The notes under the pieces were generated by a model. It saw only the letters and a list, made by a program, of their open reading frames with translations. It was not told where the DNA came from and searched no databases. Position numbers and translations under genes: made by a program. From Cylindrospermum sp. FACHB-282 (GTDB taxonomy: Bacteria > Cyanobacteriota > Cyanobacteriia > Cyanobacteriales > Nostocaceae), in the NCBI RefSeq assembly GCF_014697195.1, contig NZ_JACJRJ010000040.1, positions 1 to 58,597 of the forward strand: a DNA stretch of 58,597 nucleotides, read 5' to 3'. This document shows positions 29,717 to 35,707 of this stretch, piece by piece (position 1 is the stretch's first letter; every line of letters starts with the position of its first letter).

Positions 29717-30910
29717 ATGATGCTTGTTTTTGAGTTTAAAGCTTATGGGTTGGCAGCCCAACTAACAGCAGTAGATGATGCAATTCGCACTGCAAAGTTC
29801 ATCCGAAATAGCTGTATTCGGCTATGGATGGACGTTAAAGATATAGGTAAAAACGATTTGCAGAAATATTGTGCAGTGCTTGCGGCTAACTTTCCCTTTG
29901 CTAATGAACTCAATTCAATGGCTAGACAAGCTTCTGCTGAAAGAGCTTGGTCTTCTATCTCTAGGTTTTATGACAACTGCAATTCGGGAATTTCTGGAAA
30001 AAAGGGGTATCCTCAATTCCAGAAAGATTGTCGTTCTGTAGAATACAAAACATCAGGATGGAAGCTTGCGGATAATCGTAAATCCATAACATTCACTGAC
30101 AAAAAAGGGATTGGGCGATTAAAACTCAAAGGTACTCGTGATTTGCACGAATACCAAATCAACCAAATAAAACGGGTAAGATTGGTAAAGCGTGCGGACG
30201 GCGTTTATGTTCAATTCTGTATTGATGTTAACCGTTTTGAGAACATAGAACCGACAGGAAATACAGTTGGACTAGATGTCGGACTAAAAGAGTACTACAC
30301 CGACTCTGATGGAACAATGGTTGAAAATCCTAAGTTTCTTCGTATTGGTGAAAAAGTTCTCAAGCGTTCACAACGTCGTGTTTCCAGAAAAGTAAAAGGG
30401 TCAAAAAATAGAGGCAAGGCTAGACAGATTTTAGGAAAGCGCCACCTCAAAATAAGTAGGCAACGTAAAGACCATGCTGTGAAATTAGCACGGTGCGTAG
30501 TTCAGTCTAACGACTTGATAGCCTATGAAGATTTGAGGATTAAAAATTTGGTGAAAAATCATTGTTTAGCTAAGTCTATTAATGACGCATCTTGGTATCA
30601 GTTCCGTGTCTGGGTTGAATACTTTGCCAAAGTATTTAAGCGCGTCACGGTTGCGGTTAACCCGCAGTATACTAGCCTTGAATGCTCTAGTTGTGGTGTC
30701 ATTGTTAAGAAAACACTATCCACTCGAACCCATGTTTGTAAATGTGGTTGTGTGATGGATAGAGATGAAAACGCAGCTAGAAATATCCTGAGTCGAGGAT
30801 TGGGTACGGTAGGACATACCGGAACCTTTGCGCTAGACGCAAGCAACGCTTGGGGAGATGAAACCTCTACTCAAATTGGTGAAAACCTGTTTGAGCAAGT
30901 TATGTCTTAG
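29717..30910 (+). CDS. tnpB: RNA-guided endonuclease TnpB (IS200/IS605 OrfB)
   Basis: 397 residues, full length for the family. RuvC-like catalytic residues are intact: Asp in TVGLDVGLKEYYTDSDG, Glu in AYEDLRIKNLVKN and the final Asp in DRDENAARNIL. The zinc-binding CSSCG...CKCG lies just before the last motif. A strong GGAGGT precedes the ATG. TnpB proteins are omega-RNA-guided DNA nucleases that help keep the transposon at its donor site, ancestral to Cas12. The protein should be active as far as sequence shows. Confidence 0.93.
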   Translation: MMLVFEFKAYGLAAQLTAVDDAIRTAKFIRNSCIRLWMDVKDIGKNDLQKYCAVLAANFPFANELNSMARQASAERAWSSISRFYDNCNSGISGKKGYPQFQKDCRSVEYKTSGWKLADNRKSITFTDKKGIGRLKLKGTRDLHEYQINQIKRVRLVKRADGVYVQFCIDVNRFENIEPTGNTVGLDVGLKEYYTDSDGTMVENPKFLRIGEKVLKRSQRRVSRKVKGSKNRGKARQILGKRHLKISRQRKDHAVKLARCVVQSNDLIAYEDLRIKNLVKNHCLAKSINDASWYQFRVWVEYFAKVFKRVTVAVNPQYTSLECSSCGVIVKKTLSTRTHVCKCGCVMDRDENAARNILSRGLGTVGHTGTFALDASNAWGDETSTQIGENLFEQVMS

Positions 30911-30948
30911 ATTCAAGAATCCCCGTGCGTTCACGCCGGGGAGTGTCA
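30790..30948 (+). ncRNA. Predicted omega-RNA region of the tnpB element
   Basis: In this family the guide RNA scaffold is the transcript of the 3' end of tnpB and the right-end hairpin, with the guide coming from the DNA just past the element. Here the scaffold would end at the hairpin at 30921-30941 plus AGTGTCAA, and the guide would start near 30949. The 5' limit is a guess; the call rests on family knowledge and the visible hairpin. Confidence 0.45.
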
Positions 30949-30999
30949 AAATGCAGATGTCTAGCAAGCAGCGTTTTGTCTGCCCACATCCAGAAAAAG

Positions 31000-32040
31000 A
31001 TGAGTAATCAAATTCAAGACTACAACCCCAGCAGCGTCGGTGAAAAAAATGGTAATCTCCTTGGTTTACCCTTTGATTACGAATCTGCAAACCTGATTGT
31101 TATCCCAGTACCTTGGGAAGTTACAGTTTCCTACGGTGCTGGTACAGCCAACGGGCCGCAGCAGATTCTAGATGCTTCAACTCAACTCGATTTATTTGAT
31201 TTTGATCATCCTGATGGCTGGAAACAGGGAATTTTCATGATACAAATTCCCCAAGATATGTTAGACAAAAACAAATATTATCGCGCCGAAGCCGCAAAAA
31301 TTATTGAACGGCTGGTAGAAGGTAAACAACTGACAGATACACCAGATTTAATACCTGTGCTGACAGAAATTAATCAAGCTTGTCAACAGGTAAATCAATG
31401 GCTATTTACCCAGTCACAAGCAGCAATTAACAATGGTAAGCGAGTTGCAGTCATTGGTGGTGATCACAGTTCACCCTTAGGCTATTTCCAAGCATTAGCC
31501 GCTAAATATTCAAATTTTGGCATTTTGCACATAGACGCCCACGCAGACTTACGCGATGCCTATGAAGGATTTGAGTTTTCCCATGCATCCATCATGTTTA
31601 ATGGGTTAAAAATCCCGCAAATTTCCAAATTAGTGCAAGTAGGAGTGCGGGATATTTGCCATGATGAAGTGCAAATAATTAACCAATCGAATAATCGAAT
31701 TGTCGCTTATTACGACGCAGCAATTAAACAAAAGCTTTATTCTGGCACGACTTGGATTGATATCTGCCGAGAAATTATCAGCCATTTACCTGAGTCCGTT
31801 TACATCAGCTTTGATGTTGATGGTTTAGATCCCAAACTTTGCCCAAGTACAGGTACACCTGTGCCTGGTGGATTAGAATTAGAGCAAACTTTTTGCTTAT
31901 TTCGGGAATTAGTAAATAGCGGCAGAAAGATTATAGGTTTTGATCTCTGCGAAGTCGGTGATGCTGAGTGGGATGGAAATGTAGGTGCGCGGATTGTTTA
32001 TAAACTGGCGAACTTGCTAGATTTATCTCAGATAAAATAG
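31000..32040 (+). CDS. Agmatinase/arginase-family ureohydrolase
   Basis: 346 residues from ATG 31000; the open frame runs up to 30925 but that part lies in and just after the IS right end. The three binuclear-manganese motifs are present: VIGGDHSSPLGYFQ, ILHIDAHADLRDAYEG and YISFDVDGLDPKLCPSTGTP. Likely substrates are agmatine (giving putrescine and urea) or another guanidino compound. It resembles the Anabaena agmatinase-type proteins more than arginase, but guanidine hydrolases in cyanobacteria share these motifs, so the substrate is uncertain. Confidence 0.82.
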   Translation: MSNQIQDYNPSSVGEKNGNLLGLPFDYESANLIVIPVPWEVTVSYGAGTANGPQQILDASTQLDLFDFDHPDGWKQGIFMIQIPQDMLDKNKYYRAEAAKIIERLVEGKQLTDTPDLIPVLTEINQACQQVNQWLFTQSQAAINNGKRVAVIGGDHSSPLGYFQALAAKYSNFGILHIDAHADLRDAYEGFEFSHASIMFNGLKIPQISKLVQVGVRDICHDEVQIINQSNNRIVAYYDAAIKQKLYSGTTWIDICREIISHLPESVYISFDVDGLDPKLCPSTGTPVPGGLELEQTFCLFRELVNSGRKIIGFDLCEVGDAEWDGNVGARIVYKLANLLDLSQIK

Positions 32041-32098
32041 AACATCATGAACAAAGAGAATCAAAATTTTAAGCATGGTTATGTTTAAAATGCCAAAA

Positions 32099-32935
32099 TT
32101 AAAAACTAGCATTGATAAATTCTTCCCTTAATACTTCCCATTCTGGCAGCCATTTCCAAACATCTTCCTCTCGCTCTATTTTCTTAACAACTTGGTCTAA
32201 AAAAACTGGAATTGGACTATTAACCCCTGAAGCTTTTGACTCAAATCCAAATTCTCTTAATTTATTTTCCATGCTACACAATAAATCTTTACCTGCAAAA
32301 AAAGTTAGGTAATTTTCAAAATGAAATCCACCAGGGCTAAAAGATGGAAGTAACTCTTCAAATTTTTCTAAAACAGCATCTGCTGTAACTATACGTTCTC
32401 CTTTCTTACTTTGAACTATTTCCCTTATTTTTATTTGACAGGCTTCCTTATTTTTACCCCTAGGAAAGGGATGTTGTGAACCAAATACGTTTTTAATTGC
32501 TTCACCCCAAGAATTAGGGAACCCAAAGTAATTTAGAGCAAAACGAGCGGCTGTATACACTGCAATTTGTTTTACAGATGCATCTAAAGCTTCACGGTAT
32601 GAATCCATAGATGGAAGTTTATTCCTTACAGTACGTTGAACAACTACTGGATCAATCAAATAATTTTCTATCTCTTTTCTTTGCCACTTCCAACCTACTT
32701 GTACTCCTTCATAGTTGTATGGAAGTGGTGAGTCTGTTGGGATAAACTCATAGTTATCAAAATCACGATCAACTATTCCAGCTAGATTTGATATGACTAC
32801 TCTATCAGGAATAATTTTTTCCATAAAACTTTTTCCCCCAAGGGGTTTAATTTCGCATTTAGGCAAAAGTTGACGAAGAAGTCTTATATCATAACTGCCA
32901 GAGTTTCCTTCACAGTAAAGAACACCTACAGACAC
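32099..32935 (-). CDS. TOPRIM/DUF4435-like effector of a candidate defence pair (AriB-like)
   Basis: 278 residues, GTG start. The N-terminus reads SVGVLYCEGNSGSYD with the TOPRIM Glu at residue 9, followed by GIVDRDFDNYEF with the acidic DxD-type motif at residues 56-60. WKWQRKEIENYLIDP (about residues 83-96) is the EIENYL signature seen in DUF4435 and OLD-type TOPRIM proteins. Its start overlaps the ATPase gene by 10 bp. The pairing of ATPase and DUF4435 TOPRIM nuclease in this order is the layout of the PARIS anti-phage system (AriA-AriB). The precise subtype needs comparison. Confidence 0.7.
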   Translation of the reverse strand: MSVGVLYCEGNSGSYDIRLLRQLLPKCEIKPLGGKSFMEKIIPDRVVISNLAGIVDRDFDNYEFIPTDSPLPYNYEGVQVGWKWQRKEIENYLIDPVVVQRTVRNKLPSMDSYREALDASVKQIAVYTAARFALNYFGFPNSWGEAIKNVFGSQHPFPRGKNKEACQIKIREIVQSKKGERIVTADAVLEKFEELLPSFSPGGFHFENYLTFFAGKDLLCSMENKLREFGFESKASGVNSPIPVFLDQVVKKIEREEDVWKWLPEWEVLREEFINASF

Positions 32936-34032
32936 AAAACCCCTCCTGGTAGCCGATATATGTCACTTTGACTAATTACATTGCTTACAGCTTCCGAATG
33001 AGTTGTGATAATGAATTGACAAGTTGGGGCAATTTTCATTAACTGAGCAGTAAAAAATTGAGATGCTGAGGGATGTAAATTTAAGCCTATTTCATCAATT
33101 AAGACAACTGAATATGCAATTTGCTGCCTAACAAACTCGTAGAGGATAGGAAAAATTGATTGTTCACCAGCAGACATTTCAGCAACGTCATAAGTTCGAT
33201 GTCCATCACTGAGTAAGAAGTATGTAGTTTCTTCTGTTGGAGAATCTATACTTGGAAGTTCCTCTAGATTTTCTGCAAAATAACGGTCAGTAAATACTTT
33301 CTTATATAATCTTTCTAACTGTTTAAGGTAATCATTTTCAAAACTAATATCAGGGTTTTGTCTACGTTTCCAACGAATCAGATATTGACGTAAACTACCA
33401 ACGCCTAACTCAAAAGAAGTTTCACTTCTAAGCTCTTTTTTACCTTCTCCTGCTTCGTGATTTGGATTAGCTCCTAAATTACGAAACTGATCGAACCAAA
33501 AAATTCCTGGAAGTTTAGAGAAGTAATGGCGAACAGATTGATCACCACGATTGATAAACCACTGTGCATAATAGCGTCCGCGAAATTGAGAACGTTCTTC
33601 AGGCGTATTACCAGCTTTCCAGAAATCTCCACTCAAAATAACTTTAACTATACGACTGTCACCTGGTTTTACAAATGCTCGCTCAGACCGAAATTCTGGT
33701 GGCTGGGCATCATACCATCTTCTGGCAATCTCACGAGTTGCTTCTAGTTCTTCTTCTTCAAAAGATACTTCTAACTCGATTCGTGGTGTTCCCCATCGCC
33801 AGTAGCGTCCAGGGAGAAACCCAATCCAATCAAAATCAGAAATTTTGTGAATCCGCCCGGTTGCCAGTGATAGCGGCAGAGCAATTGCCTGTAATAATGT
33901 TGTTTTGCCAGAACCATTGTCCCCTAGAACTAAGAAACGATCGCTAACTTCATTAAGGGTTTTATTTTTAAAAGAAACCCTTAAGTTTTCAAATCTTTTG
34001 AAATTTTCAATATAGATAGATTCTATTTTCAT
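32926..34032 (-). CDS. ABC/SMC-type AAA ATPase of a candidate defence pair (AriA-like)
   Basis: 368 residues. It starts MKIESIYIENFKRFENLRVS, as SMC/RecF-like ATPases do. Walker A is LGDNGSGKTTLLQAI (about residue 37), the signature is AEMSAGEQSIFPI (about 285), Walker B is VVLIDEIGLNLHP (about 310) and the switch His is in IITTHSEAVSN (about 344). The middle region is short and has no long coiled coil. It overlaps the TOPRIM gene downstream. Such ATPases act as sensors that hold or activate the nuclease partner. It is divergent from ilvA, whose gene is unrelated. Confidence 0.75.
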   Translation of the reverse strand: MKIESIYIENFKRFENLRVSFKNKTLNEVSDRFLVLGDNGSGKTTLLQAIALPLSLATGRIHKISDFDWIGFLPGRYWRWGTPRIELEVSFEEEELEATREIARRWYDAQPPEFRSERAFVKPGDSRIVKVILSGDFWKAGNTPEERSQFRGRYYAQWFINRGDQSVRHYFSKLPGIFWFDQFRNLGANPNHEAGEGKKELRSETSFELGVGSLRQYLIRWKRRQNPDISFENDYLKQLERLYKKVFTDRYFAENLEELPSIDSPTEETTYFLLSDGHRTYDVAEMSAGEQSIFPILYEFVRQQIAYSVVLIDEIGLNLHPSASQFFTAQLMKIAPTCQFIITTHSEAVSNVISQSDIYRLPGGVLCL

Positions 34033-34195
34033 TTGTTAGTTGCTCCCCTTAATAGTGGATTAAACCAATCATATCTTTATATTGGCAAATATGGCGAGCG
34101 ATCGCTACGCAGGTGCTGTTGCCCAACAACCCGCAAAACAGCAACCCAACTAGAGTAAAATTAACATCCATCCCAAATGCCCAACCCTTTATCCC

Positions 34196-35707
34196 ATGTA
34201 TTGCGATTACCTGGTACAAATTCTGACTGCCCGCGTGTATGATGTTGCCCAGGAAACACCACTGGATTATGCTCCTAACCTCTCCGCACGGCTGAATAAT
34301 CAAATCCTGCTAAAACGGGAAGATATGCAATCAGTCTTCTCCTTCAAGCTGCGGGGGGCTTATAACAAAATGGCGCAACTATCACCAGAATTGCTGTCTC
34401 TAGGTGTAATCACTGCCTCTGCTGGTAACCATGCCCAAGGAGTTGCCCTCGGTGCTAGTCGGCTAGGAACGCGAGCAATTATCGTGATGCCAGTCACCAC
34501 ACCCCAGGTAAAGATAAATGCAGTTAAAGCACGGGGGGGAGAGGTGGTATTACATGGCAATACCTATGATGATGCCTACGCCCACGCCCGACAGATGGAG
34601 GTAGAAAAAGGGCTAACCTTTATACATCCCTTTGATGACCCCTATGTAATTGCCGGACAGGGAACCATCGGTATGGAAATTCTCCGCCAACATCAGCAAC
34701 CCATCCATGCAATCTTTGTCGCTATTGGTGGGGGCGGCTTAATTTCGGGAATTGGGGCTTATGTTAAACGGTTGCGTCCCGATATCAAGATTATCGGCGT
34801 TGAACCAGTTGATGCTGATGCGATGTCGAAATCTCTCAAAGCTGGTCATCGGGTGCGCTTATCTCAGGTGGGGTTATTTGCTGATGGTGTAGCAGTGCGG
34901 GAAGTGGGGGAAGAAACCTTCCGCTTGTGTCAGCAGTATGTAGATGAAATCATTTTGGTGGATACAGATGCTACCTGTGCCGCGATTAAAGATGTGTTTG
35001 AGGATACACGCTCAATTTTAGAACCTGCGGGGGCATTAGCGATCGCAGCTGCAAAAGTCTACGCCGAACGCGAACAAATCCAAGGACAAACCTTAATTGC
35101 TGTCGCCTGCGGTGCTAACATGAACTTTGACCGCCTCCGCTTTGTGGCAGAACGGGCAGAATTTGGTGAACGCCGGGAAGCGATATTTGCCGTGACAATT
35201 CCCGAAGAACAGGGAAGTCTGCGCTTGTTTTGTGAATGTATAGGCGATCGCAATTTAACAGAATTTAACTATCGCATAGCCGACCAACAAGAAGCACATA
35301 TTTTTGTCGGCGTGCAAATTCAAAACCGGGCTGACGCTGCCAAAATGGTAACAAACTTTGAAAACGTCGGCTTAAAAACCCTTGACTTAACAGACGACGA
35401 ACTGACAAAATTACACCTACGGCACATGGTAGGTGGACATTCTCCCCTAGCCCACAATGAATTACTCTACCGATTTGAATTTCCCGAACGTCCCGGTGCA
35501 TTGATGAAGTTTGTCGCTTCTATGTGTCCTGATTGGAATATCAGCCTATTTCACTACCGTAACAACGGCTCAGACTACGGGCGAATCGTGGTAGGAATGC
35601 AAGTTCCGCCCCACGAGATGGAAGAGTGGCAGGCATTTCTCGATACACTCGGCTATCGCTATTGGGATGAAAGCCAGAATCCCGCATATAAGCTATTTTT
35701 GGGATAA
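34196..35707 (+). CDS. ilvA: Threonine ammonia-lyase, biosynthetic
   Basis: 503 residues, standard for the long biosynthetic form. The PLP-binding Lys lies in SVFSFKLRGAYNKM and the phosphate-binding loop is IGGGGLISGIG. Two C-terminal ACT-like regulatory domains (about residues 325-500) include REAIFAVTIPEEQGSLRLF and YRFEFPERPGALMKFV, which bind isoleucine and valine. It makes 2-oxobutanoate from threonine as the first step of isoleucine synthesis. It is divergent from the ATPase/TOPRIM pair. Confidence 0.95.
   Translation: MYCDYLVQILTARVYDVAQETPLDYAPNLSARLNNQILLKREDMQSVFSFKLRGAYNKMAQLSPELLSLGVITASAGNHAQGVALGASRLGTRAIIVMPVTTPQVKINAVKARGGEVVLHGNTYDDAYAHARQMEVEKGLTFIHPFDDPYVIAGQGTIGMEILRQHQQPIHAIFVAIGGGGLISGIGAYVKRLRPDIKIIGVEPVDADAMSKSLKAGHRVRLSQVGLFADGVAVREVGEETFRLCQQYVDEIILVDTDATCAAIKDVFEDTRSILEPAGALAIAAAKVYAEREQIQGQTLIAVACGANMNFDRLRFVAERAEFGERREAIFAVTIPEEQGSLRLFCECIGDRNLTEFNYRIADQQEAHIFVGVQIQNRADAAKMVTNFENVGLKTLDLTDDELTKLHLRHMVGGHSPLAHNELLYRFEFPERPGALMKFVASMCPDWNISLFHYRNNGSDYGRIVVGMQVPPHEMEEWQAFLDTLGYRYWDESQNPAYKLFLG

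Follow-up and report, generated by a model that had tools for sequence, protein, structure and literature searches.

The window, the whole stretch of 58,597 nucleotides analyzed here, encodes an ATPase and a TOPRIM-like protein in two overlapping genes that probably act as an abortive-infection module working like PARIS, with the ATPase as sensor and lock and the TOPRIM nuclease as effector; by analogy with that system, we put the probability of this reading at roughly 0.6. The pair is most likely a distant cousin of PARIS and represents a group, here called type X, that the published PARIS detection rule would miss; the reading would thus extend PARIS-type logic to such a group. A first-pass annotation of the same DNA had proposed a cyanobacterial anti-phage module of two genes, an ATPase followed by a TOPRIM protein, that overlap by 10 bp. 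Both genes and their overlap are real, the relatives on named records are Nostocales, as expected of a cyanobacterial module, and a role in phage defense is probable, given that the pair appears as exchangeable defense cargo in a chromosomal slot and that a sister subtype lies inside DISARM. In the literature as searched, largely without subscription journals and partly in excerpt, the type X group, the slot between speB and ilvA, and an ATPase–TOPRIM pair inside DISARM are undescribed.

An overlapping ATPase–TOPRIM gene pair fills a variable segment between core genes

The pair and its surroundings are laid out as follows.

34032..32926, minus strand: first gene, 368-aa ABC/OLD-type ATPase (ORF, ATG start)
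32935..32099, minus strand: second gene, 278-aa TOPRIM-like protein, a distant AriB/DUF4435 relative (ORF, GTG start)
32926..32935, minus strand: 10-bp overlap of the ATPase and TOPRIM genes (from ORF coordinates)
32039..34120, no strand: variable segment (from a DNA-level alignment of the window with L087, same genus)
30925..32040, plus strand: left core neighbor, agmatinase/arginase family, presumably speB (ORF; named by eye)
34196..35707, plus strand: right core neighbor, threonine deaminase, which we take to be ilvA (ORF; named by eye)

Aligned with the same-genus genome (L087), the flanks of the window are 91–95% identical as far as 32038 on the left and from 34121 onward on the right, and DNA alignment is absent in between. 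The GC content is ~0.32–0.41 in the pair, 0.40–0.45 on the speB side, and 0.45–0.50 on the ilvA side. The two short flanks that we compared share no direct or inverted repeats of 8 bp or longer, and promoter and terminator scans gave counts close to the level of shuffled sequence (9 vs 7.1 and 1 vs 1.8, respectively). A protein that is TnpB-like by eye is encoded at 29717–30910, just 5′ of speB.

Both genes are full length in 19 of the 33 type X loci that we counted, which come from genomes and one plasmid and leave out a distant fused protein (L020) and a locus of the sister type Y (L121). The 10-bp overlap is identical in 19/19 of these intact loci; 18/18 is the safer count because one of them, L112, was a query and encodes a TOPRIM protein with a C-terminus unlike that of the other members. 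The overlap suggests translational coupling of the ATPase and TOPRIM genes. Since the overlap and the motifs described below are kept across intact loci, the two genes are not a chance pair. Searched with the window ATPase, the window's own genome yielded, besides this copy, a single relative (35% identity) as well as two weak matches.

ATPase motifs are conserved apart from one residue beside Walker B in the window copy

The window ATPase scores 76.1 bits against Pfam AAA_21 (cut-off 27) and 73.8 bits against AAA_15 (cut-off 32.1). Its top PADLOC models are PtuA (E 8.5e-26), the retron ATPase_I-A (7.9e-23), and AriA (1.5e-22); its best named PDB matches are PtuA and retron ATPases, with an OLD protein also among the PDB matches (E 4e-4). 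Septu and retron Ec78-type PtuA are thus the best named counterparts of the type X ATPase, whereas the partners differ: Septu PtuB is an HNH protein and the type X partner is TOPRIM-like. No reverse transcriptase of a retron was seen by eye among the flanking ORFs. Elsewhere in the window's own genome, C37 (L056 4350–6334) and C21 (L057 4650–6460) carry an ATPase gene followed by a small HNH-like gene, an arrangement that by eye resembles Septu PtuA–PtuB.

Walker A (GDNGSGKTT), the signature (EMSAGE), Walker B D313-E314, and the switch H345 are conserved in 22 aligned ATPases. The earlier description of the ATPase motifs as intact holds for these elements but misses residue 316 (codon 33085–33087), two positions after the Walker B Glu, which is Gly in the window and Asp in 21/21 others. 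Ser322 and Ser324, near Gly316, are likewise unusual. Because Gly316 replaces the Asp of all of these relatives, it may weaken or impair the window copy of the ATPase. Compared with L012, the window copy is otherwise under purifying selection, with dN/dS values of 0.15 for the ATPase and 0.29 for the TOPRIM gene.

The TOPRIM protein is a remote match to AriB profiles

The TOPRIM Glu, the acidic motif, and the EIENYL stretch singled out in the first-pass annotation were borne out: E9, D56, D58, and E88-I-E-N-Y92 are invariant across 19 aligned proteins. Among PADLOC models, the window TOPRIM protein matches only AriB (E 3.7e-8, positions 4–132 of 236) and the fused AriAB (2.6e-6), with no match to OLD, Gabija (GajA), or HNH-partner models. 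The profile searches that the annotation had suggested therefore recover PtuA and AriA for the ATPase and AriB and AriAB for the TOPRIM protein, but neither OLD nor Gabija for the latter. Against Pfam DUF4435, the window protein scores 15.1 bits, below the cut-off of 27. When seven family members were scanned at E ≤ 1, AriAB was matched by 7/7, AriB by 4/7, and DUF4435 by 2/7, with a best value of 0.02. The motif order E / DxD / EN / GK is common to type X TOPRIM proteins and one set of AriB-profile proteins.

Searches against the PDB reached E. coli AriB at E 0.16 only with a 19-row TOPRIM profile, and a 7-row profile gave no match at E 10; as a control, one set of AriB-profile proteins, 10 in number and from cyanobacteria, reached PDB AriB at E 0.0015. 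The window TOPRIM protein alone returned no relevant PDB match. Control searches with two cyanobacterial AriB-profile proteins, each submitted singly, gave no match at E 1 either, so a missing single-sequence match is weak evidence against PARIS membership. Compared with AriB-type sets, the TOPRIM profile aligned at 69% probability over 97 columns with one set and at 12% with another. An AlphaFold2 model of the TOPRIM protein, built from a two-row alignment, was too poor for use (mean pLDDT 45.1, pTM 0.37).

Type X shares the layout of PARIS and falls outside its published rule

The published rule for PARIS, as given in the available text of PMC9122126, combines AAA_15 at 32 bits or more, or AAA_21 at 27 bits or more, with DUF4435 at 27 bits or more. 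The window ATPase exceeds both ATPase thresholds (AAA_15 73.8 and AAA_21 76.1 bits), the two genes are adjacent to the point of overlapping by 10 bp, and the TOPRIM protein has the catalytic Glu and the DxD (E9, D56, and D58). Its DUF4435 score of 15.1 bits, where 27 are required, places the pair outside PARIS by this rule. Of the resemblance to PARIS put forward earlier, the AriA–AriB-like layout stands, in line with the AriB profile match (E 3.7e-8), and membership is not supported.

Type X and PARIS have in common the ATPase-then-TOPRIM order, the separate adjacent genes, AAA_15/AAA_21, the motif order, and the weak AriB profile match. They differ in the sub-threshold DUF4435 score, in the position of the TOPRIM Glu (residue 9 in type X vs E26 in E. 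coli AriB; PMC12409363, as excerpted), and in the length of the ATPase, which is 347–377 aa in 22 type X family members vs 429–459 aa among 25 AriA-type ATPases used for comparison. The divergent subtype that the first-pass annotation had considered possible is supported. The short ATPase on which it relied is shared across the group rather than peculiar to the window copy.

The type X family is patchy and loses its TOPRIM gene one-sidedly

A search of the phylum with the TOPRIM protein at E 1e-3 matched 10/386 genomes, of which three hold short remnants and one, L020, the distant fused protein of 571 aa; scanning genome contigs yielded a further pair, in an Anaerolineae MAG (L011). Within the order, a profile search matched 55/388 genomes, type Y included, and the X-type ATPase occurs in at least 26/388 genomes at E 1e-70, once as a fragment, counted over the best five candidates per genome. 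Phage records, plasmids, and viral contigs yielded no X-type TOPRIM gene, and the X-type ATPase has two distant partial matches in viral contigs. A full-length X-type ATPase gene without its TOPRIM partner lies on a plasmid of Calothrix sp. PCC 7716 (L124 6001–7101), where two unnamed genes without PADLOC matches follow in the place of the TOPRIM gene.

Decay of the pair is one-sided. A full ATPase accompanies a broken (L018, L106, L111, L117) or missing (L115, L116, L124) TOPRIM gene in 7/33 type X loci, which are perhaps not all independent and come partly from draft genomes in which single stops may be sequence errors; the reverse case, a full TOPRIM gene without a full ATPase gene, occurs in 0/33. 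L115 has the same genomic context as the intact L109. The remaining loci hold a TOPRIM fragment only (four), two broken genes (two), or an ATPase fragment only (one). Estimates of dN/dS (NG86) are 0.27–0.29 for the TOPRIM gene in four comparisons and 0.07–0.15 for the ATPase gene in three, with rows shared between comparisons. One-sided loss together with these values is consistent with an effector that is expensive to retain, and the loci that kept the ATPase and lost the TOPRIM gene amount to a natural experiment predicting which gene carries the cost. One-sided loss alone is no proof of a toxin because deletion of either gene of E. coli PARIS is non-toxic (PMC9122126, in the text available).

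Among the type X loci listed, most sit by eye amid core genes and not in dense defense islands. Defense-model matches among the selected neighbors scanned are confined to L011 and L107, where type IIG restriction genes lie a few kb away from the X pair (L011 14070–16705; L107 13577–16960).

The phylogeny of the TOPRIM protein indicates that type X is a horizontally moved family. In the tree, f1, genus g24 of f2, f58, and f6 were rejected as clades (AU p 1.1e-5, 9.3e-4, 8.2e-8, and 5.1e-5, respectively), with the long rows L011 and L016 flagged as uncertain and L016 being one of the two g24 rows. The AU test was limited to these four groups; f13 and f10 are split as well. Across all labels the tree requires 11 changes vs a shuffle mean of 14.0, a value as low in 1/200 shuffles. 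Part of the descent is vertical, since the labels are more clustered than in shuffles.

The speB–ilvA interval as a slot for exchangeable defense cargo

In a search of 80 genomes from the family for each gene, speB and ilvA were, by manual reading, collinear within 20 kb in 15; the 15 intervals covered here are 14 of these (all but G700) and that of G249. The gaps between the two genes range from 666 to 11,244 bp. The X pair occupies the slot in the window and in L012, and a different ATPase–TOPRIM pair, type Z, occupies it in L087, which belongs to the same genus as the window, and in L091. In L092 and L096 (2/15 intervals), the slot holds homologs of PD-T4-2 (A 524–533 bits, B 201–209 bits), a system that protects the E. 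coli strain in which it naturally occurs from T4 (PMC9519451, as excerpted). In genus g13, the pair is present in G249 where G197 holds another gene.

Family-model scans, run on selected cargo and neighbor genes and leaving out the cargo of L089, L090, L093, and L095, found toxin-type domains above Pfam cut-offs in four further slots: RelE in L086, BrnT/BrnA in L088, PIN in L097, and PIN twice with a ParE-like domain and HEPN in L098. By eye, L093 carries a HigB-like gene. The gap in L094 lacks any gene of 80 aa or more. Read from the speB–ilvA intervals alone, these contents support the view that speB–ilvA is a site of exchangeable defense cargo among related genomes, and they define a concrete chromosomal slot for such exchange. 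A Roc-COR GTPase is encoded beside BrnT/BrnA in the slot of L088 (3554–6193), a same-genus genome.

Proposed mechanism and alternative readings

In E. coli PARIS, an AriA hexamer holds three AriB, an Ocr-like trigger releases them, and tRNA is cleaved (PMC11455837; PMC12409363, as excerpted). By analogy, the type X ATPase would form a complex with the TOPRIM protein and keep it inactive, would sense a product of infection or the failure of another defense, and would then release or activate its partner. The freed TOPRIM nuclease, with E9, D56, and D58 as putative metal ligands, would cut a nucleic acid of the host, with RNA (tRNA, for example) the likeliest target if AriB is a guide, and the cleavage would stop the infected cell.

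The main rival holds that the ATPase and TOPRIM proteins work as one OLD/Gabija-like enzyme that cuts invading DNA, rather than as a lock that releases an RNase. The ATPase belongs to the OLD/SMC/RecF class and has an OLD protein among its PDB matches (E 4e-4), and OLD class 1/2 and Gabija GajA likewise combine an ABC ATPase with TOPRIM, fused in their case (PMC10568477, in the text available). However, OLD and GajA are single chains whereas the window pair consists of two proteins, as does PARIS, and the TOPRIM protein matches AriB/AriAB and not OLD/Gabija in PADLOC. No UvrD-like GajB helicase adjoins the pair by eye. Repeated loss of the TOPRIM gene with the ATPase kept also fits a separable effector better, and we consider a joint DNA nuclease unlikely.

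One-sided decay, the fixed overlap, and mobility also speak for a plain toxin–antitoxin or addiction module, self-stabilizing, in which the ATPase would be the antitoxin and an anti-phage role would be absent; BrnT/BrnA, RelE-like, and PIN genes in the same slot of relatives point the same way. The slot also holds homologs of PD-T4-2, however, a validated defense system, and a sister pair lies inside DISARM. A large ABC ATPase would moreover be an unusual antitoxin for a simple addiction module, and we regard this reading as distinctly improbable. A housekeeping unit for DNA or RNA repair, to which a RecF/SMC-like ATPase and the position of most listed loci between core genes (by eye) might point, is very hard to credit and was rejected on distribution and transfer: the TOPRIM gene, a remnant, or the distant fused relative is present in only 10/386 genomes of the phylum and the X-type ATPase in at least 26/388 of the order, and the family has been transferred between groups and has often decayed.

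A sister subtype lies within DISARM

Type Y, a sister subtype of type X, is embedded in a DISARM operon carried by Nostocales plasmids. On a plasmid of Trichormus variabilis 0441 (L125 3976–16152), a type Y ATPase and a DUF4435 protein are encoded between drmMI and drmA, and the drmMI and ATPase genes overlap by 4 bp. PARIS-like modules have been recruited by BREX, which the authors read as a reply to anti-restriction, and they too attach an OLD-type ABC ATPase and a TOPRIM nuclease to a restriction-like system (PMC12839542, in the portion available); here, in contrast, the sister type Y sits in DISARM and type X of the window stands alone.

Over its full length the type X ATPase can be aligned with two further short subfamilies, but its alignment with AriA-type ATPases spans 72–78 columns that cover the ABC head only. 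The PARIS-like reading could be extended to a lineage: the short ATPase–TOPRIM types X, Y, and Z may form one group of guard modules apart from known PARIS that watch DNA-restriction systems, in which Y would be the built-in guard of DISARM, firing when a phage inhibits DISARM, and X and Z would be free-standing in the chromosomal defense slot. We hold this extension to be speculative, and the case for a separate lineage is weaker because the AriA-type sets align poorly among themselves too. If it is true, the trigger would be "failure of the first defense", in a group that has never encountered Ocr. The DISARM-embedded pair makes the guarding of restriction systems a directly testable question. 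The window's own genome holds a second ATPase–TOPRIM pair, of type Y, outside any DISARM operon (G000:C83; L055 9686–10747 and 10750–11646).
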